Below, one piece after another: positions 43,401 through 61,400 of a DNA stretch of 64,000 nt. A program made the position numbers and the translations under genes. Numbering within the stretch: the stretch's first letter is position 1; each line of letters opens with the position of its first letter. Location of the stretch: positions 27,274 to 91,273 of the forward strand of contig BQKZ01000582.1 in NCBI GenBank assembly GCA_036244855.1, written 5' to 3'. The DNA is from Temnopleurus reevesii (taxonomy: Eukaryota; Echinodermata; Echinoidea; Temnopleuroida; Temnopleuridae). Below the pieces are notes generated by a model. That model was not told the DNA's origin. It made no database searches and was given only the letters and a program-made list of their open reading frames with translations.

Positions 43401-46400
43401 TCATTGAAACAGATCCTATTTCCCACGCCATGAAGACAATTCTTTCCCCAAAATACAATGAATACCACGTTCTGAGTTATCTCATTTCACATTGTTCCTC
43501 TCTTATACAGGAGCAATTGGGCCAGAACGTGTGTCTAAGAAAGAAAATTGATATGGAATATTTAGAGATGAAAAGGTGTTTGTCATGAAACTTTTGTATA
43601 AGATGATTATGATCAGATGTTTTTGATGATTGTATCTGATTAGAGTTCAGAAATCGATGAACCCAAGAATAAAAGTTGATGTGTAATGAGTGTTTGAGTG
43701 TCATCACCTGGAAATTCATTGATTTACATTGATTTCTTTTTGGAGAAGTCATAATTATATTTTTTTACCAATCTGTAGAATATTCGTGTTATCATGTATC
43801 TTAAATCAGTTTTGTCCATTAGTGAGCATTCCTTTCCTTTTTTAATATGCTCCAGTATTCTTTCAAAACAGACTGTTAGGGATACAAATGTTATAAGGGA
43901 AAATCCTCTTCTATTTTTGGTCTATTTTAATACTTTCTGTTTCTTGTTTCTGTGAATAATTCTCATGATATCACATTTTAATTTCCTGTGCTATATCACG
44001 ATTGCTTTACAAAATATTTTTTTTTAACAAAGTTTTAGTATAGAACTGTAAAGTGAAGCGTCTAAAACTGGTAATCAAATATGAAAAGTCAAATTATTCC
44101 ATGTCTTTGGGTATACATGTTTGGGTGGTAGGCATTGCTATTGATATGAAAGTGGATATGTCATCCCCTCTGAAAGCACAAAAAACAAAGAAGAAAAATG
44201 TTAATATTCAAATTACAATTAATTGCAACCTGAGATGGCGGGTCTTTGATTGGATTTGTTTGAAGAAAACAAGTGTCATTACTTTTATTTTATTTCTTCT
44301 GTATAAAACTCTTCACAATAATAGTTTGTCCACCATCGACAGTGTCAATGTTGTCCTTAGTACCATATGTACCAATCAGAATATTGTAAAATAGCAATTA
44401 TAAATTAAGCCACGAACTGCCAGAGGCAAGGGACTTGTTTGCGTGTCATTTGCCTGTTCTCAAAGGTGTGCTAAATTAGTTACACCTTTACTTTTTAAAA
44501 TATAATTCAACATTTACCAATGGTTGCTTGAGAAAGTTTGGGGGAGTTTTGGGAAGTGGCTCAGTATGGGGTTTGTAAAGCTGGGGTTAATGACTTCCTT
44601 TAATTTTCCAATACAAATAATAATTAAAGTGATGTTTTTATAAGGCTATATCCGTGGTGACCCAATGGAGTTTACTTGGTTATTCAATTTACTTATATGA
44701 ATACATCTTAATATGCATAAATGTATGTTGTTTTTTTCTGATTTAGAAAAAAGTGTTTTTTTTCGTTCGGGGTTCAGCTTCCCCTTAACACAATATTTTC
44801 TATAGTTCATCCATAATAAGTCCATAACCAGTTCATTTCATGCTGATATGTTTATTATTTCACATTTCACTCAATACAAAATATGATCATCAACACAAAT
44901 TATTTTTAGGGTTGAAAATGTGCATATGATTTTCACAAACAACCATAATCATCAGGGCACATATAAATCAAGATTTATGTATGTTTACAGCATTTAAATA
45001 AAATCATGTAAGCCGATTTCTCAATCATATCTCTATTTTTGTTATCTTCCCCCTACAGATGTGATTCCGCACACGTGGGAACGTATTGCGAGTACAACGA
45101 CCCGTGCTTCAACAACTTCTGCCAGAATGACGGAGTCTGCGAAGTGAGTTTCCAGAGTGACGGGAGCCCGCCGACGTTTGAATGTAACTGCACGTTAGGT
45201 TACTATGGCAGTCTATGCGAGCAGGAGACGGACAGTGTTTGTACTATGGTGCAACCTTGCCAGAATGATGGACTGTGCCGGTTGACGACGTCGCTCTGGA
45301 ATTACGAATGTGACTGCACTCCAGCAAAAACTGGTACTTAACAACATTAATGTCATGTAAAGTTTAACTTATAAATACAAAGAATAAGAAAAAAATAATT
45401 TTATCGCTTTTCTATTGATTTTTCCTCAACAATATTGCCCCTTCAGATAGCAAAAACATTAAACATGGGCCTTGTAGCTGTATCATGGATTATAGAAATA
45501 GGATTACAAAACAAATATAAGATGTATATTAGAATGAAGAAACAAAACGTTGAAGGATTCAGTTGAAGAAGTGAAGCACAGTTGCAAGGTAGAAATATGG
45601 TGATAAAACATTCAAGCAATATTATATAGCAAGCTTTTTGTAACTCCTCATTAGAGGGAATATGCTGATCTATATGAATGATGATGATGATGATGATTAA
45701 AATGTTACTGTTGAATGTGATGTTGATAGTAACGTGACAGTGATAATTAAGATTAGTGCTGACGAACTTTACTATATATGACACTTTCTTTTTCTTCTAA
45801 TGATCGACTTCAGCAGAAGTGACAATCTGACACCCAACTCTGTCGTTTAATAATTATAAATGTTTTTTTAATTTCATCTGTAGGTATTAACTGTACAGAA
45901 GAAAACTTCTGTGTCAGCAATCCTTGTCTGAATGGGGCATACTGTATATCTTCATCGAATGGATACACATGCGATTGTGCAGAAGGTGAGACTTACACAT
46001 TCATTTAATGTACTGTAATAGAAGAAATTTTCATGTTGTATAACCTTCTTAGGGTAGAGACCATTGCAAACCATTCCAAAATATTAATGAGACACGTTTG
46101 TAATCTTATGTAAACTGAGGCATTTCTTGATTGAGCAAATATATTATGGGAAAAGAGCATCTAACAGAAAGCAGTAGCCGTACCAAATTATGGTGAAAGC
46201 CTCAAATTTAGTTTTGTTTCAGATTTGTCAAATTGTTTTGTCTCATACTAATTGCAATGATGCCATGAGATAATCGACTTTTGCAAATGTCAATTCCTCA
46301 TGAAATTTGTGAAAGGTAGATTTTACAATATTCCCTCTAATCATGTATGTCATTTTAGTATTCTATATAAAACAATTTGAAGAATGCATTATAGTGTAAT

Positions 46401-49400
46401 GTATAAACTGCATCCTCTAATCCCAACTCTTACTATCCGATAGGTTTTGAGGGGGCGACCTGCCAGAACGACATCAACGAATGCACGCGACCAAATGGTC
46501 CCACTGTATGTTTTAACGGGGGCACTTGTCACAACCTGAATGGTGGCTTCTGGTGCGAATGCCCGCGGGAGTTCACGGGAGACCAGTGCGCGTCAGCGTA
46601 CGAGCCATGTTCCCCTGATCCGTGTCTGAACGGCGGCCAGTGCGCTTCCACCGGACCCTACTCCTTCACCTGTACATGTCCTAGCGGTGAGTACGGGTGC
46701 AGAACAAATTTTTAAGTCATTTCTGGAAGAAGTTCCTCCTTGTGATAATCCTTTTTACACAAGCAACATTAGGCATTAGTTAACGTTTTGTTTTAATTCT
46801 CAATTGATCAGTCATGACGTGACAGCATTCATAATGGTGTGAGAAGTCTTCATTTTGTGCTTCAAAACTTAAATAAAGAAAATCACCATTATAGAAACCT
46901 ACAGGAATTATTTTCCAAGTAATGCTAAGCACAGTTCTCATAGACATTTTGAATATACACATGTGTGATAAACTATCTACAATATTCAAAACTACAACTC
47001 TCACAATGTACTCGAGCATGCTCAATTTTTCACAGTTTAATTATCAATCAATGAATTAATATTATTAATCTTCTGATAGCGAATTAATGTCTCAGCATAG
47101 TAAAAATATTTATAAAACATATTCTTGTTGCTCGTATCATTGAAGAAGCATTCCTATTCACTTTGTAAACTTTCCGTAACAATTCTTGAAATGATAATTG
47201 TTCTTCTATCTACATTATTACAGGCTTTATGGGAGAAACATGTGAGATAAAACTCAACGATTGTACGCAGCACATGTGTCTCAACGGTGGCAAATGCATG
47301 GATGGAGTCAACAATTACACCTGCTTATGTCCTCCAGAATATGAAGGTAAGCATTGCAATTCTTCTGTGTCTTGTGCTACAAAAGTCCCCTTCAGGTTGC
47401 AATGATCAGAGTCAATAGCCAATTTAATCGAGATGGTAGTCTTCGAGACTTTACCAAACTAGTTACATGTAGGTGTTTACAGTATACAGTATTCACGTAT
47501 GAAATACCAGTTGGGAATAGATGATCGATTGATGTTTACTTGAAAAGAATTTTATACCATTTACCATCTACAGCGTATTCTTCCCTCTGGAGCAATGATA
47601 TAGATATCATTTCGTGATTATTTGTTCTAACTTGCAATGATCAAGCCAACGAAGGAGTTTTTAATCAAAGATATTTGGACTTAAAGTCATAACCTCTTAC
47701 CTGTTGCGAATCTTTCTGTGAAGAACCCAACTCTCTTTTATTACGTGGTGTTTTAACACAGATGTTGCTGGTTTGAATCCTGCCCACAGACTCCATCACA
47801 CAGCATTATCGTACTTAACATATATGTGGGCCATTGGAGACAAATTAGATGTTTATTTATGAATCTTTGTTCCTTTCAGGTCAATTTTGTCAACATGACG
47901 TCGACGAGTGCAACACGCCCATCAACCCATGCTTCAACGGAGCAACATGAGCCAACACCATCGGCAACTTCACCTGCGTTTGTGTGGCTGGCTGGGAGGG
48001 ACGTTACTGTGAGATTAACCATGACGATTGCAACCCTAACCCCTGTCTCCTTGGAAACTGCACTGACGGAGTGTCTACGTTTACTTGCACATGTCCACCT
48101 GGAAAAACTGGTAAGAAAATAAGGCTAAAAATAATTGTTTTGTTGCCCTCCAACGAAAGACCATCTGAATATTTTAGATAAACATGTGAACATTTTCTGA
48201 TGTTTTTTTTCTCAATCCCTTCGAAGTCTTATTTTCTACATGAAATGTGTTTGAAAAAAGAATAATTTAAACAATTTCTAACTGACTGGCGTTATTCTTC
48301 AAAAAGTATTTCTAAATTTTTATTTGCTAAAAGAGTGTATTGAAAGAAATTCGCAATTGAATTCTAAATAAAGTTAATTGGCATGCTTCAATCAAAATGG
48401 TCCTAGTATTTCTATTTCTTAAAGATAACACAATGTGAGTCGGTTGCAGCACGCATTGAGTAAATAATGATAATGATAATAGATGCAATTTTGAATGTGC
48501 CAAATCTATCCTGCTGGATGCCCAAGCTAAAGCAGAAGGGAGGAATATGGGTGAAATACTGAATTAATAAATTAATTTCAATGGATAAGAAAAGAAACCC
48601 AAAACAGAATGATAAATAGAAAAATCTACATGTGCTTGCTATCCACAGGTCTACTTTGCCACCTGGAAGATGCATGCATCAGTAACCCCTGCCACCACAC
48701 AGCAGTGTGTTCAACATCCCCTCAAGATGGGTCATACGTGTGCTCCTGCGCAACGGGCTATACGGGATACAACTGCTCCGTGGACATCGATGAATGCAGC
48801 CTCAGTCTAAGTATGAAGATATTTGTTTTCTCCTCAATAATGCATAATTAATATAGATGCACAATACAACATTAGAATTGTTTTCTCCTCAATAATGCAT
48901 AATCAATACAAATACACAATACATAATTAGAGTCTGAATGACAACATTTCTCAAGAAAAGTGAGAGAAGATAACGTCTAATGATGATCATGCTCTAAGCC
49001 ATTCACTAGTGATGAAAGTCTTGAATTTGATTGAAAATACACCTAATGCATAATCCGCAAGTGTTGGCATCTTTGAATAGGCTGGTTTACCAATAGATGC
49101 AAATGTTATGCATGGTTTATACAAAAAGGTTGTTCCTGATGACTTGAAAGCATGCTGGAAACTTTCCTGATAAAGCAGCTAGTACTTTATGCAAACTGGA
49201 TTCCAAGTATTGTAATGTTATTGTTACTAGCCTGTCAAAACGGATACCACCTAACTGTGATCGTTGGCAAGAAATGTGAATGAATCTGAATATATTAGTA
49301 AACTGGTCTATTCAGAGATGCTGACACTTGCAGATTATGCATTAGGTGTATTTTCAATCAAATTTGATGCTTTTATTACGGATGAATGACTTAGAACAAT

Positions 49401-52400
49401 GTTATTGCTATAATGATTGCTCTCACTTTTGTTAAGAAATGTTGTTATCCACATTCTAATTTTATATCATACATATTTTGGAATTGTTGGCATCTCTACC
49501 TATTTCCCAAATAATCCAACAATATCAGCTTTTCAGATAGTGCATGGCGATTGAGATCCTACAATTTTCACTGTGTCAAATAGTATGTGGTTGATAAAAA
49601 TGAATGAATTTTTTTTTCATCTACAGCCCCGATATGTGGTCCTGAGGGAAGGTGTCACAACTTTGACGGTGGCTACGAATGCCTCTGCAACCCAGGACTG
49701 ACTGGCGAAAGATGCGAGTCCGACATCGACGAATGTCTAGATGATCCGTGCCGAAACGGCGGGACGTGTTACAACCGTCGAGGGTCGTATCAGTGCGTCT
49801 GCCTTCCAGGTATCTCTTTCACTGCTATTTCTCCGTGGGGTTTAGGGAGATTGATAGATTGTATATTCAAATATCTTGAAAAGAAAATAAGCTTAATCAG
49901 TCATTTATATCCAGAGACCAGTTTTATACTCTCATCATTTTTCTGAGATATTGAAAAATTAGGGAAAAAGTAACCAAGTATTTCGAGTTCATCAGATCTA
50001 TCAAAGCCATAAAACCCAGCCTGATTAGGATTTTATGTAAGCCATCATTGATATAGATAACAACAATTTGGTAATTTAAATTTTTTGAATAAAAATAGTG
50101 CGAACGGATGCATTTGACAAAGATATGGTGACACATTGATAATTTCTGTTCTAATCCCACCGCTGCCACCAAATTAACAAAAAGGGCCAAAACTCTCTAA
50201 TCCTAAGTAACATTGCATCTCCTGTCATTCCAGGTTTCATGGGAACGAGCTGCGAGACTGACATCAACGAATGCCACAGCAACCCATGCTTCAACGGAGC
50301 TAGCTGTCAAGACCAGATTGGTTCCTACCATTGTGAATGTGCTCCAGGTTACTCGGGCACACGATGTCAGGTCGACATCATGGAATGCTCGTCATCGCCT
50401 TGTTACAACGGGGGAACTTGTCTTGATGGCGTAAATCGCTTCCAATGCCTGTGTGCAACAGGTGAGATACAAAGTATTATTTTTGGAGTTTTATAAAAGT
50501 TTTTGCTTATGATGGTCTTATCGGCAGGAGCACATTTAACCAACTGGCATCAGTGCCAATGATGCCTACCCCCCCCCCCCCCAAAAAAAAGGGGAAGAAT
50601 TATTTGGTTTTGCTTCATGCTCAACAAATAACCCTGTGAAAATACATGCATTTACGGTTATTCATATCTATCAGAGAGCACGATGGTAGTTTTCTTGTAC
50701 GGAAGTGATTTCGCGAAGTGTTCACAATGCGCGCACCTGGTATATAATACATGTAGAAGATATCCCAGCAGGCTCCTGGAAATGAACAACAGTAAAGGCA
50801 TGTATTGTGCAAGCTGATTATTTAAAAAAAAAAATAATTCTTATACAAAGCTGAAAGTATGATCCAATGAAATGTCTGATGCTTACTGAAGGAATCATGA
50901 ACGTTTAAGTATCTGATCTTTAAATAGAATGAATTTAACAGACTTGTTACGCATCTTTTTTCCTTTTTCTCTGCAGGATATGAAGGGATATTTTGTGAGA
51001 TTGAAAGCGACGAGTGCCAGGATGAACCATGTTTGAATGGAGGAGTTTGTGTGGATCTGGTTGGAGAATACCGGTGTGAATGCCCCACAGGAACGACAGG
51101 TTAGTACAATTATGTGGAGTTCCTCAAGGCTGTATTGAGGGTCCATATCTTTTCACTGTTTGTGCTAATCCTACAAGAGATGTCAAATTACATGGAGGTA
51201 AATCACTTAGCATCTATGCATATGATTTGTAATATAATGCTTTTTGAAAGGAAATTTAATGGAAAAACGAATGGGCTCTTTTTTTCAGTTTTTACTAATT
51301 TAGCTTCAGCTAAGACATATCAAATAATGCATAGATCTGAATGAAATCAGGACCATGAACTTCTACGTGATGATTATAATTTAAGTTCTGATTGGATGTG
51401 TAACTAATCCTCATTGCAGCATGATATGTTCTTGTGCATTTTGTAAGATACGTTTTTTTGCTGTAATATTAGTAATTAACTTTATTTCTGTTTGATTTTC
51501 CAGGAGAAAATTGCCAATACAACATCGACGATTGTAACTCCAACCCATGCGTGAATGGTGCTATATGCATTGACGAGATCAACGAATACAGGTGCGAGTG
51601 TCCTGATGGCTACGACGGTACGCATTGCGAGAATGACATCAACGAATGTGCATCCGGGCCGTGTTACAACGGTGGTACTTGCATCGATGAAATCAACGGA
51701 TATCGCTGCCAGTGTCCATTCGGCTACCATGATCCATTCTGCATGTCTGACATCAACGAATGTCACAGCGATCCGTGCCGCAACGGCGGTTCGTGCCGGG
51801 ACGGCGTCAACGAATACACCTGCGAATGTCTCGCAGGTTACGCGGGAGATCGCTGCGAGGCTGATTTCGATGAGTGCTCGTCGAACCCGTGCCAGCATGG
51901 AGGCTCCTGCAACCACGGATTAGCATTCTACAACTGCACATGCAGGCTGGGGTACACGGGACAGAACTGCGAGACGAATATCGACGACTGCGAGTCAGAG
52001 CCGTGTTTGAATGGGGGAACGTGCATCGATGGCGTGGCTTCGTTTCAGTGCGTTTGCCCTACGTTATTCACAGGGAATCTGTGTGAGACAGAGAGGTCTC
52101 CGTGTGATGATCATGAGTGTCAAAATGGAGCTACCTGTATGTCTTCTCTGGGTTACTCTGGATACTCCTGCAGGTGCCCCAATGGATTCCAAGGTAAATC
52201 ATCTTTGTATTATTTTGAGGCGTCAGTTACACAAAGACACCAATTTCACCATTCTTAGAAAATGCATACAAAGATTTTGGCCCATATTGCTAAGGGTATA
52301 AAAATTGAAAACAAGTTCTTTTCTTTATGACAAGAAACCATTTTATGTCATTGTGTTAATAAGAATCGTCACACTCCCCTGAGTATTTTGATACCAAAAC

Positions 52401-55400
52401 CACACTGTCATCACGACTGTAGTTACTTGTTTTTGTCACTGGACCCTTGATGTGTGTGTATAAATTTGTGGAGTGAGGTGAATTTTGTTACCTTTTACTC
52501 CTGCCAGTTTTTCTGTGTGAAATTGATTACTCGTAATTTATATCTTCTGATTTTTCTGCAAAATTCTATTTTAACCCATCTTTCTTATTTGTTATTTTTT
52601 TTTTACTAGGTAACCGTTGTGAAATTGATCGCGATGAATGCCAATTCTCGCCATGCCGAAACGGCGGCGAATGTCACAACCTGGAGGGGTCGTTCGAATG
52701 TAGTTGTATGGCAGGCTTCGAGGGAACACTGTGTGACATCAACATCAATGAATGCGCTTCTGGTAAGTGGAAATATTGAGCTAAAAAATGCAGAAAACAA
52801 GTCAGACTTACATGCACTATGCACAATTAAGCTTATACAGAGATGCCAATCATTTTGTAATATGCATGAGATGCATTCTCATGTTGATTAAAAAAGGCTC
52901 TTGTCACATGTTAATGGCTGGGAGATTGTGTATTGTTGCCATGTTTCCTGTTATTTTGTCTAGCTGTTTCATTATTCACATTTTGATTTTGCCTTGTGCA
53001 TATTCAGAAACTGTTAGCATCTCTGCAGTTATAAGAAATCTCTTCAAGTGAAGAATAATAAGCATGTTAGCATCAGCCCCTGATATTCTTTTATCGTTAT
53101 GTTCTATTAGGCAGAGTTCTCATTTGGTACATGCATATTATTGACTATGATATTGCATAAAATGTTTAATAAAGCCATGAGGTTGAATATTCATGTTGTT
53201 GCTTCGTCAATAAGTTTCCTCCCGTAGGTCCATGTGTACAATTTCAGAGTGGGAAATAGATTGAGCCACATGGTTTGTGATCGACCGTTTAATTCACATT
53301 AGTAATGAGAATGTATTCTTTATTCAGAGTAGCCACTTCAGTTTATTATCTGTTGTATCCATGGGCCCTGAATGATGTAACGTTATTACATTATAGATAT
53401 TCTCTCCCTAAACTCTCACCAATTCTTTGTACATTCTCCAGACATCCTCTTATGTTCTCGACCCATCCATCTCATGTTCTCCTCCATTCCTCCTTTATTC
53501 CTCCTTACATAAATAGGGCCGTGTACAAACGGCGGGACTTGCACGGACGGCATCGCCAGCTACAGCTGCTCGTGCCAACGAGGGTTCTCGGGCGACAACT
53601 GCGAGCATGACGTCGACGAGTGCCTCAGCGCACCCTGTCTGAACGATGCAACTTGTAACGAGTACGTGGACAGCTATACATGCTCCTGTCAGTCCGGCTT
53701 CAGTGGCATGCATTGTGAGATCAACGATCAGGATTGCACAGAGAGGTAAGAAAGCGTAGAGTGCAAAATTACTCTTGATTCGGGGGTATCGAAATCTATG
53801 GAAATGTGTAACTATTTGAAGTTAAAAAATGCTCATACAGGGGATCTTGCAGGGACAGAGTTAATATCAAAGAATTACAACTGCAACTGGATGCGCGGGA
53901 GTCAAACTGCTATATACAGTGCATCAATTGTGATTTCAAACAAATTAACTTCAATTCATTGATGTGCATTATTGATATGTCTGACGTGTAGCTCTTGTCT
54001 GTACGGCGGTACTTCCAACAAATGCAATTCTGATCAAATGAAAGCTAAACTAATCTAAATCATTATCTATGACTGTTTCAGCTCTTGCCTGTATGGAGGT
54101 ACTTGCCTGGATGGTGTTAACACTTACACCTGTGAATGTGCTCCTGGATACACCGGATCAAACTGCCAGATCCAGATCAACGAATGCGATTCTGATCCAT
54201 GTGAGAACGGAGCTACGTGCCAGGATCGCTTTGGATCCTACTCCTGCCACTGTGCTGTTGGTTTCACAGGAATCAACTGTGAGGTAAGAAAGATGATAAT
54301 CATGTTACTACTATAATTATGACTTTTACAACAGTCAAGCATGTTTATAATGACAACATAATGAAAGCAGAAGTCCAATGGCCCTAAATAATAAACAATA
54401 GCAAGACCCCAAAATGGAGAGCTGTATTGATGAAACAGATGACGAATAGAGTCATTAGTTGCTGGGCTGTTTCTATTTTGAACATGATAGTTTTCTAATG
54501 CATGTTCACTCTTAATCCGAATTCAAAAGTTTTTTAATTTTGTGGTTTTTTACAATTTGATTGAGCACCAAAAAATTTCTATGATTTTCAAATATGGATT
54601 GCGAATAATTCTAAATCCATATTAAATATTTCTTTTTTTGCAGCACGTTGTTGATTGGTGTAGTCCACAGAACAACCCCTGCTATAATGGAGCTACCTGT
54701 GTGTTGCGTGGACACCAATACGAATGCCAGTGTGCGCCAAACTGGATTGGAATACTGTGTGACGTACCCAAAGTTTCCTGTGATATCGCTGCTTCTAGCA
54801 AGAGTAAGTGCAAGTTTGGATCATTTATTTTACAAGTTAATCTTGACATTTTAGTGGTTTAGGCTAGAGTCTCCAGATTAAGAATATGGAAAACTGTTGG
54901 AAGAAATATCAAAGTAGAATTAACCAAAATCTTATAGGCGTTACACTTTGAACACATTTGAGAGGATGCTGCTCAAATACCAATTGAACGCAATCCATGC
55001 TCATCTTTTTAAATCCGTATTTTGTGCGCCACTCAAAATTACAGCTTGCAATTGATTTACAATTGATCACCATTTTGTAACAGTACCTCAAGCATTTCAG
55101 CTTTTGTGGTAATATATGTCCGGAAATTTTCGTGATGGTTTTATTTTTGCCAATTTCACAGCCTTGGCTTTGCAAAAAGTTTTACTCTGTATGATGCACA
55201 GTGTACAAACACTGTCAAAAACGTGAAAATAACCAATGACCAATGTGTCAAATCGATTTGAAGTGCCAAATATATATGGAAGTATAAATAAAGAATTCAG
55301 TACTATTTGTAGTGGTTCTAAAATGGCAATATCCGTTTTCTCTTTCAGATGTATCAAGAAATGAGCTTTGTTTGAATGGAGGGACTTGCATAGATGGAAG

Positions 55401-58400
55401 CACAAGCAGTCATTCCTGTCTCTGCCAAGATGGCTACACAGGATCATACTGCGAGCTCAACATTGATGAATGTGCGACTGCACCCTGCCAGAATGGTAAG
55501 TCTTGACTACCCGATATGTGTAATTGTATTGATTTTGTGTGGGGATTACTGATACACACGCACTAGCCCTTTGCTCTTTTTTTTAATCGCCATTTGTTTT
55601 GTCCCAGGGTCTGTTAGATGTTGCAGGTTGAAATTTAAATTTGGATATTATTTTGATATTATAATAAGGAAAATTTAAATGCAGAATATGATCGGGGATA
55701 GCTGAGTGCCTTTATGGTTAGAAATGATAGCAGACCACATGCATGTGCTATATGATGTAAAATGAATATTTCATAAAGCAAAGGAAGCTATTGAAATTAT
55801 ATAGAAGCTTTTAGAGAATGAGATGAATTCAGCAGAGCTTCCCTTCCAAGTAGTAGGACTTTTCAAAGTGGCTGTAGGATAACATACAGTGTAATAGATC
55901 CTTGAGATGCAGTGGTGGTAAGTGTATTGAAGGTAAAGATAGAAAATGTTCCCTGAAAATTAGATTTCTATGGTGAAATTATAGGATTTCTAGATGTGTC
56001 GGGTTGGTTGGCGGCTATGAGATAGAAATAAAAAGTATCAGCAAAGAGAGCTGTTTACACTCAATTCTTTTTTCTTTATCCCAGGTGGTACATGTACCGA
56101 TGGTGTGAACAGCTACACCTGCTCCTGTGTGCCTGGCTTCGATGGGCGGCAGTGTGAACGTAACATAGATGAGTGCTACTCCTTCCCTTGTCATCATGGA
56201 GGACAGTGTCACGATATGATCAACGGATACACGTGCTCCTGCCCTGCTGGAACACAAGGTAATGAAAATAGAGTATTTGCAATATAATAATACATACACC
56301 TATACATAAACCTGTACATATATGTATCCACATGTCAATATATATGCCTACACACATACCTATACCTATGCCTACAGATATACCTATAGATTTGCCCACA
56401 CACATACCCATACATATGCCTACACACATCTATACCTAAACCGACACACATACTTATACATGTGCCCACACACACACACCTATACATATACATTTACCAA
56501 CATATAGCTGTAATAATGAACAGATTTTATGTAACGCTTATCAACTCTTCATGAGAATTCCTTAAACGTTCTACAATTGCAGTATTATATAACCATACCC
56601 ATACCCACAACCATACATACACATATCTACACTTATACAAACACCTCCAACTAAATATATAACCATTTCATAACGGTACAGTAGAGTGGTACTCCTTCCT
56701 TGCTATCATAGAGTACAATGTGTAGGCATGATCAACTCATACACATGCTCTTGCCCTGCTGGAACACAAGATAATTATAGCACTACACAAAAGAATAGAT
56801 ATGCCTATAGCTATACCCATCCCTATATCCATATTATCACCCATACATCTCTTGAATAACCACAATATCTTTTGATTGTCCTAAAGGCACTGACTGCTCC
56901 ATCAATCTGGACGAATGCTACGAGGGAGCGTGCTACCACAATGGAATCTGTGTGGATCAAGTCGGCACCTACACCTGCAACTGCCCTCTAGGGTTCGTCG
57001 GTCAGCACTGCGAGGGGGATGTCAACGAGTGTTTGTCGAACCCCTGCCATCCAATTGGAAGCCAGGACTGTGTGCAGCTCATCAACAACTACCAGTGTGT
57101 CTGTAAACCTGGTTATACAGGTGAGGTTATACAGCCATCTGTTTGTAGTGATCATATATTTCATTTTCCCCTCCATGAAACTGTTCATGTCTGTAGAGAT
57201 TGTCAGTGTATATTAGCTCGTTGTTTTATGATGGCCAACAGAGTTCGGTCATTTATGATTTTTTTTAGTCTATGAAAACTTTTCTTTTGCAAGAAAAACA
57301 TTGTATTCAATCATGATAAATTTCCACATAAAAACTTTCCTCTATGTCAGATAATGCTATACTTCAAAGTATCAGTGTCAGAAGCCTACACTTATACCAT
57401 TTTTCAATTCCTCATACATTTTAATGGCTCCGCCACCATAAGGTTTTGCTGGAGGCATTTCAATTGTCATCCAAATGCTGATGATTTTTCCTCTATTTAT
57501 GTGTTAGTTTTATTTTATTTCATTTTTAACTTTTTTCACATGTTTTCTTGTTTTACAGGTCAAAATTGTGAAGAGGAGATTCCGAATTGCCAAGACGATC
57601 CATGTCAGAATGGTGGGGTTTGTGCACCAAGCAATGGTGAATATTTCTGCAATTGCCCAACAGTAAGTTAACTTTTTGAAAGTCAAAGTAGTTTTCTCAT
57701 GATTTTGTGGGGGGTTTCTTTTTGGCTTTTCATTCTTTCCCTTTTAATTGATCTGTCTCTCACCTTCCCTAAGTCTCTCTCTTTTCTTATGTTGTTAAGT
57801 TTATACCATTCTTGCTATATGATTTATAAGCATGGAATGGCTGATAATTTTCAACAGATTCTGTGATGCAAGTTCACATATGCGCTTAATAGTATTCTCC
57901 ATTTATTCATGTTTTTTATGAGTCTGTTATATACTTGTGTCTTCGTTCACATTTTCATGTGTACTCGAGAAAATGTCTTGTACAGATCATAAAGTAAATT
58001 GTTTTGAGTTACTTTTTGTGTGCGCATAGAATGTCTGCTGAAAGATTTATGCATAATGTATGTCATGAATTATCAAATTGGTAATGCTGTTACTCATCAT
58101 CATTTTCTTTTTGCAGTATTACACTGGAGCTCAATGCGAGACCAGACTCACACCATGCGGCATCCTCCCCTGTCAGAACGAAGGGACTTGTGTGGAGTCA
58201 GACCCTGACACCAATGGTTACACCTGCATCTGCCCATCAGGCGTCACCGGTCAAAACTGCGAGATTGACGCCAACGAGTGCGCCTCGTCGCCGTGCGTGA
58301 ACGGCGGAACGTGCCTCGATGAGTACGGTCAATATCGATGCGACTGCCCGGCGACGTGGAACGGCCGCGAGTGCCAGCTTTTCGATCCGACGTTTGCTGG

Positions 58401-61400
58401 CGGTATTGGGATGAATCCAGAGTTGCCGGTTACGGATTCGCCTCCGACAACGCCGCAGGTCGTTTTGCCAACCGCCACTGAGCCATTGAGGTGCTCCACG
58501 GAATGCCTCATGAGACAAGGGAACTCCATTTGTGATGTGAGTTTTTGTTTTTTATTTTCCTTTCTGCCCATGGTTGAATGATAAAGTAGAAGTGATAGTG
58601 GTGATGATGATGATGATGATGATACTGATAGTGACGGTGACTGTTACCATGATGATGATGTTAATGGTGATGGTGTTAAATGTGTTTATGGTGGTCATGG
58701 GAACAATGGTAATGATGCTGTCTTTGGTGATGATGAAAAGGGTGGCAATGATTACAATATAAATATTGATGAGAACCCATCATATGCAGAAAAACGTACC
58801 TTCATTTTGATTCCACAATTTTCAAGAGAGTATCGCTTAAATCTTTTAAAATGAAGAATGATAAAAATGTTCAACCGATAGGTAAAATAAAACTGATGCC
58901 TTTGATTATCATTTTTATAAATAATAACTCTAACTTTTTCATATTCCCTAGCAGGAGCACTGCAACACTCACATATGTGGATGGGATGGCAAAGACTGTT
59001 CTCTCAACCTAGACCCATGGGAGAACTGCACCGCAGTCAACACTCTTTGCTGGAATCATTTCGGTGATGGTAACTGTGACAGGGAGTGCAACAACCAAGG
59101 GTGTCTCTTTGACGGCTTTGACTGCCAGGATCAGCAACCTGAGGAGTGCTTGTAAGTATATGTGATAGTGTGGCTCCAGTGTGAGTGCTGTATTGTGTTC
59201 TGAGTATGTTCCATGTGGTTGTTCAGTGGTTGCAGTTCAAATCCCACTGCTGCCACTAAATTAGCAACAAATAGATAAAGATAGGTCAAAAATCTTCTCA
59301 ATCCTCCAATGTGAGATTTGAATTTTGTTTGGAGTAATTTCTGTCAGGTAGTTTAGTGGTTGTAGTTCAAATCCCACCGCTGCCACCCAATTAGCAATTG
59401 ATAAAGATGGGACATTGATAATTATAAAGATATAGGACATCCAGATTTCCCTCAGATATGAGAAAACACTAAATTACATATTCTTTTTGCACCAGCATAT
59501 CCTTCTGAATAAGATTCATGCATGTCTCATTTTTACCCTTCTGTACATCCTCCCACAGGGATGATGCCTTTTGCTTGGAGCGTTACGGGAACGGGTTCTG
59601 CGACGAGCCATGCAACAACATCGGCTGCCTCTACGACGGACTGGACTGCGAGGAGAGCCCCGAGTTCGCCCACGGAGTCCTCATCGTCTACGTCATGATC
59701 CCCTACGAGGAGATGATCACCGTCAACCGCTCCCAGACCTTCCTCCAGGACATGAGCATCGTGCTCAACACTGTTGTCCTCTTCGCGCCAACCGCCGAAA
59801 ACCAGAATAAGATCGAGCCATGGGAGAACGATCCCAGAGCGGTGCAATTTCCTGCCAAGCGTGATGTCCTCGCTGTGGACCGGAATGGAAGACTTAGTAT
59901 TCAGAAGAGACAGGTTACCTCAAGTGAAGATGATGGGTAAGTGCATATTCTTCTATTACATCATGATTATTCATGTACATTATGTAATCATAATAAGAAG
60001 ATGGACACCAGGTAGATATCTGTTTTACCAAAATTGTTATAATATGGCTGTTACTAAAGTTGAAGAATTTGCATCTAATCATATCATGATCACAAAGGAT
60101 GTAGTTACAATTTCAGCATCATAGATTTTACAGACCTATTTTGAGGGTTTGTGGGACTGTTGCATAAAGGCACAGAATAATCTGTCATGTCATTCTCAGC
60201 TTATGAATTTGTAAACATCTGCAGTGGTTTTCTCATACAACAATCAAACTTTCGCGCCATTTAAGGACATCAATTACATAACCATCACATGACTTCAAGT
60301 TCATGTTATTCGATGTATGATTTTGAAGAAATAACACTGTTTCAAACTTTTCTCCCTATTTATAAACCCATAACAGGTCCAAAGCCTTCCTACTCCTGGA
60401 GAATTCAAAGTGTCATGAGGAAAGGCCTGGCAGCTGCTTTGACAAGGCATCTGACGCAGCAGCGTTCCTCGCAGCGTTGGTCAAGGAACAACTCCTTCCT
60501 ATCAGTCTACCAATCGCTGGGGTTGGAAGTGAAAGTAAGATGATAATAATGATAATATACAGCATTTAAACATGCCATCTCTCTAGTCACCTATTCAGAG
60601 GCGCGAGGAAACTTATAATTACCCGGCCATGGCATAGCTGCCAAGTTGGCGCTTTTGCATTTAAAGGAATAAATTCCTGCTGGTACCCTTTCACCTCACC
60701 TGGGTTGAGTGCAGCACAATATGGATAAATGTCTTGCAGAAGGAAACGGATGACATGGGTGAGATTCGAACCTACGACCCTCGGATTGAAAGGCGAGAGT
60801 CAGCACCACTACACCACAACACTTGTTAAGATGATTGAATTTTACTTTTCTTGTCAGACAATTCTCTGATTTTTTTAAACAAAATCTTTTCATCAATAAA
60901 ATACAATGAGTCATATTGAGCATCAAAATTTGTATACATCAAGTTGTGAAATTAACCGTCGATAATTATAAGTTTAGGAATATAAAGCTGACTTGTATAT
61001 GTGGTCTGCCTTTTAATTGAACCACTGACAATTTTTAAATTTGTCCGATGTGGTAGTAAATGTACAATCATGCAAGCCTCGCATCTGCATCTCTTGTTAT
61101 GATGCTTGTTTTTAGATTTTGTCGTCAATTCTGCTAGAATAACAATAAATTGCCTCAGGATGTGAGAAATTTCTACCATTTACAATTATTTCTCTTTTTT
61201 CCAGCTGATTCTACGCCAGTTACACCAAGCATTAACGTCCTTATAGCCATTGGCATCATCGGTGCGTTTGTTCTGGCTGCCCTGTGTGTGATTGGAAGAA
61301 AGCGTCTGCGGACCAACGGGACATGGTTTCCGAGCAACTTTCAGATTTCTTCAAAGAAGTCTGAAACACAGAAAGTTCCAAGGTATGAGAAATGTTTTTT

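Follow-up and report, generated by a model that had tools for sequence, protein, structure and literature searches.

A TGA codon at a conserved cysteine of a Notch gene probably reflects a silent variable base stored as A

The window, the whole 64,000-nucleotide stretch of DNA analysed here, is the plus strand of contig C582 from 27274 to 91273, in an assembly of 558,132,977 bases and 10,433 contigs. It holds a gene with the architecture of a Notch receptor, in which a long EGF array is followed by the LNR/HD region, a transmembrane segment (TM) and ankyrin repeats. The best match outside the EGF array is to the Notch-like protein P0121, with 54% identity over the LNR/HD region. A tRNA scan found no tRNA genes in the 64-kb window. 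The features on which the analysis turns are listed below in window coordinates.

45059..59936, plus strand: 21 modelled exons of the Notch ectodomain, covering the EGF repeats, the LNR region and a part of HD
47880..48110, plus strand: 231-nt exon of phase 1-1 that encodes the last cysteine of EGF7, then EGF8 and the greater part of EGF9
47948..47950, plus strand: TGA at the third cysteine (Cys3) of Notch EGF8; its third base, 47950, is the suspected wrongly rendered base
60378..63708, plus strand: exons for the end of HD, the transmembrane segment and the first ankyrin repeats, each matched individually; the gene runs beyond the window

Once spliced, the ectodomain exons form a model of 1585 codons in which the only stop is the TGA at 47948-47950, read in frame in place of Cys3 of an EGF repeat that we take, from its position in human Notch1 numbering, to be EGF8. 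In this partial model, which starts without the first exon, 270 codons lie upstream of the TGA, and 223 codons across the 21 exons specify cysteine (128 TGC and 95 TGT). Searching exon by exon by tblastn with P0121 showed the gene to be open through the HD, TM, ankyrin and C-terminal exons as far as a TAA at L009:1709-1711, with no further breaks seen in these downstream exons. The TGA-bearing exon itself has a good acceptor (TTTCAG/GT) and a good donor (CTG/GTAAGA). The description given by the sequence-only reading, an in-frame TGA replacing Cys3 of EGF8 in an exon with intact splice sites and clean coding on either side, is thereby borne out. A genome search with the exon and its flanks found them in single copy in the 558-Mb assembly, with no second allele; besides the locus itself, it returned 40 short matches, all at query positions 477-600 (window 48176-48299), which represent an intronic repeat. 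Two intronic segments, at 56674-56760 and 53963-54025, partially resemble adjacent Notch EGF exons and are perhaps remnants of small tandem duplications.

The residue aligned with the TGA is cysteine in 120 of 121 database proteins and tyrosine in the other, in a comparison that takes in several non-Notch EGF proteins and in which the best local alignments may fall on another repeat. In a Notch-only set of 20 proteins picked as Notch, 19 aligned at this column, with 17 cysteines, one methionine and one gap. No conspecific sequence or near orthologue was present among the protein database matches listed, which for one search were the best 120 of 3088; in another search the top match stood at 43%, and identities reached 62% where 19% of the query was covered. 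A fixed stop at this codon would be expected to have a severe effect.

Cysteine codons in EGF arrays elsewhere in the assembly were surveyed in a sample made up of regions with stops (drawn from the matches listed in a protein search), EGF-rich regions and three more. The 468 complete EGF domains at 21 loci (L019-L038, together with L014, included because it bears a TGA) provide 2788 cysteine columns, which read as cysteine in 2780 cases, TGA in eight (~0.3%) and a missense codon in none. A strict-spacing scan added two TGA codons (at Cys6 on C358 and Cys1 on C8044) and one true Cys-to-Tyr change; by reading, the rest of its rows without TGA represent ends of exons or variants in spacing. Loosening the limits and adding loci brought the Cys-to-Tyr changes to two, and the total outside Notch thus comprises ten TGA, two Tyr and no TGG, although TGG is as near to TGT and TGC as TGA is. 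Random change would be expected to yield about seven missense codons for every Cys-to-TGA, and the EGF set therefore fits neither decay nor random error.

The genome is rich in large EGF-array genes. Very long exons of tandem EGF repeats occur in L019 (C358), whose open frame extends for 2774 codons, and in L024:4000-7800 (C4206). Two related EGF genes, L048 (C97) and L049 (C269), are 92% identical over 841 bases, and a tyrosine codon in one is TAA in the other.

The TGA codons depend on the strand on which a gene is stored. TGA occupies 8 of 1934 cysteine columns in plus-strand genes and 0 of 1628 in minus-strand genes (Fisher p 0.009), and in a stricter subset the counts are six and zero (p 0.036); counted per gene the test is weaker, because six of the ten cases lie on a single contig, C4206. 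The two additional cases on C358 and C8044 are on the plus strand, as is Notch. Other codons were compared as well. At two aromatic columns of plus-strand EGF genes, TAA was found twice, TTA twice and TTG not at all, and a single TAG at such a column reads as an exon end; against the strand pattern, the minus strand has one TTA and one TTG. Where conserved NNY codons are altered in these plus-strand EGF genes, the third base is accordingly A rather than G. Among minus-strand EGF genes, a TGA at a glycine column of L022 and the TAG codons of L002 and L033 are compatible with a T at the first base of the sense strand, whereas a weakly aligned cysteine column of L028 (score 12.5) reads TAA and lies outside a rule by which the stored letter is A.

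Tubulins were chosen as an independent family before their sequences were inspected. Stops were listed in six of 50 tubulin matches; four stop-bearing stretches and 11 further exons were fetched, and 13 of these 15 were compared with human tubulins. The two excluded were L050, a plus-strand tubulin stretch containing a TGA, and L051, in which the stop lies, by reading, outside the matched tubulin exon. Two minus-strand beta-tubulin copies, selected since a stop was listed there, carry TGA at an invariant arginine (R86 in L052 and R62 in L053). Two further changes in L053 turn Lys58 into AAT and Glu123 into GAT, and in the minus-strand alpha-tubulin L059 the codon for Gln91 reads CAT. All of these changes are to a sense-strand T, i.e. 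a stored A, the mirror image of the plus-strand pattern, in a small number of events; arginine CGA to TGA is also the commonest ordinary nonsense change, which counts against the tubulin evidence. L056 and L060 are divergent copies with many differences, and in L056, a plus-strand alpha-tubulin, D205E as GAA fits the rule but H309Q as CAG does not. A further minus-strand tubulin match, at C2937:55893-56159, falls within an open reading frame given as 4943 codons long, an unusual setting for a tubulin exon.

Overlapping contig ends allow two copies of the same sequence to be compared. On C8044, two ends on either side of one N share a 984-bp overlap with three differences, all of them at third codon positions by our own arithmetic; one cysteine is TGC in one copy and TGA in the other. 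A 1526-bp overlap on C4206 contains 13 differences, from which the animal seems highly heterozygous. A is involved in two of the three C8044 differences and in three of the 13 on C4206, where the differences are ordinary and show no excess of A; the other pairs of sequences compared gave no clear excess. The single N letters at L035:1586-3555 (C8044) and L025:3482-6877 (C4206) are flanked by overlapping contig ends and mark scaffold joins whose ends, perhaps derived from the two haplotypes, were left unmerged. The letters in the fetched sequence are limited to A, C, G, T and N.

We consider it very likely that the Notch TGA arises artefactually from the way in which a variable base has been stored and that the true residue is cysteine. 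The TGA is present in the stored sequence, but it is probably not a stop in the Notch of the animal, and the artefact probably recurs across the assembly or its copy. Codon 47948-47950 would be variable between TGC and TGT in the sequenced material, a silent C/T difference at 47950 (C582:75223), and the stored plus strand would carry A at a subset of variable positions, most of them silent. In a plus-strand gene, silent C/T third bases of Cys, Tyr and Phe codons would then appear as TGA, TAA and TTA; in a minus-strand gene, silent A/G third bases of Lys, Glu and Gln codons would appear as AAT, GAT and CAT, and an Arg codon whose first base varies silently between A and C would give TGA. The simplest mechanism would be that an ambiguity code, or a tie left unresolved, was written out as A, with runs of N retained. 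The plus-strand A was observed in other EGF genes and in tubulins, at codons that are conserved; from it we infer both this cause and the membership of base 47950 among such sites. The literature, in the portions available to our search, yielded no description of this Notch stop or of a stored-as-A artefact. Elsewhere in the gene, window positions 47250-47252 read AAA (Lys) where 15 of 19 aligned Notch relatives have Asn, which could be either a further case of A stored at a silent site or a normal divergence between species.

The sequence-only reading had ranked sequencing error and a null allele in the heterozygous state first, and readthrough or splicing around the codon last. Its general view, that the Notch protein does not really have this stop, is supported, whereas the two causes it put first are not. 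A true heterozygous nonsense allele, with TGA on one chromosome (encoding a truncated EGF1-7 fragment) and an intact codon on the other, is unlikely. Such an allele would belong to the commonest stop-making class, as Cys-to-TGA accounts for 25-32% of stop-making single changes in this coding sequence, depending on transition weight; the gene is otherwise intact, as it would be with a recent allele, and the apparently high heterozygosity of the animal is in keeping with one. However, it would not explain why TGA outnumbers missense codons at cysteines across the genome, or why this depends on strand, and the assembly offers no second copy of the exon for comparison. A null allele is also not needed, because what the pattern suggests is that a base varying silently was stored as A. 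Slightly less probable still is an ordinary, isolated base error of the assembly, unlinked to a variable site. The single substitution in an otherwise clean gene is what it would leave, but random errors would strike all three bases of cysteine codons, and ten TGA against two missense and no TGG is a different outcome; random error is not supported as a cause because TGA so far exceeds missense at cysteines elsewhere and depends on the contig strand.

We took seriously the idea that UGA is recoded, to insert selenocysteine or cysteine, where EGF repeats have a cysteine, Notch included. The findings at Tyr and Phe codons, the strand comparison and the tubulin results led us to abandon this recoding, and we now regard it as highly improbable. 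It would account for TGA at cysteines with almost no missense in EGF arrays, but TAA at Tyr and TTA at Phe behave likewise, TGA also stands at an invariant arginine of beta-tubulin, and a ribosome could not read the strand of a contig. TGA is thus neither limited to cysteine nor independent of strand. No SECIS element was found in the window, in 8501 bases of the Notch 3' flank after the gene, or in our own scan of 6000 bases of it, in searches run with no positive control. Hardly more credible is a real UGA segregating at EGF cysteines and tolerated through insertion of Cys or Sec, with the strand bias due to chance in a few genes and the tubulin stops being unrelated nonsense alleles. Skipping of the exon in the mRNA, which would produce a Notch lacking EGF8 and EGF9, is similarly far-fetched: at 231 nt and phase 1 at both ends, the exon could be lost with the frame preserved, but its splice sites are strong and EGF8 is otherwise conserved. 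Furthermore, mouse Notch1 without EGF 8-12, though a larger deletion, is reported to be inactive, and homozygous embryos to die mid-gestation (PMC2390518).

A silent variable base stored as A, our preferred reading, leaves the Notch biology ordinary, and the TGA is no biological novelty. The consequences lie with the assembly, where an in-frame stop or an odd missense codon can come from a silent variable site at which A was stored. Claims of pseudogenes, null alleles or recoding made from this assembly consequently need to be checked with regard to strand. A simple diagnostic, reusable on other genomes, is to look at conserved residues for NNY changed to NNA in plus-strand genes and for NNR changed to NNT in minus-strand genes.

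Several known systems bear comparison with this locus. As in selenoproteins, TGA stands where relatives have cysteine, but here no SECIS was found, TGA also occurs at a tubulin arginine and TAA at tyrosine, and the codons depend on the stored strand. In Euplotes, UGA is read as cysteine, and the likeness again lies in TGA where cysteine is expected; in this assembly, by contrast, TGA affects ~0.3% of cysteine columns and is accompanied by TGA at arginine, TAA at tyrosine and strand dependence. The gene conforms to the Notch receptor in the order of its EGF, LNR, HD, TM and ankyrin regions and in the cysteine that relatives have at this position, differing only by the TGA codon. Ambiguity codes and unresolved heterozygous sites occur in consensus genome assemblies. 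The case described here resembles them in reducing a diploid variable site to one letter and in its excess at silent positions, and differs in that the letter seems always to be A on the stored strand, giving rise to false stops.
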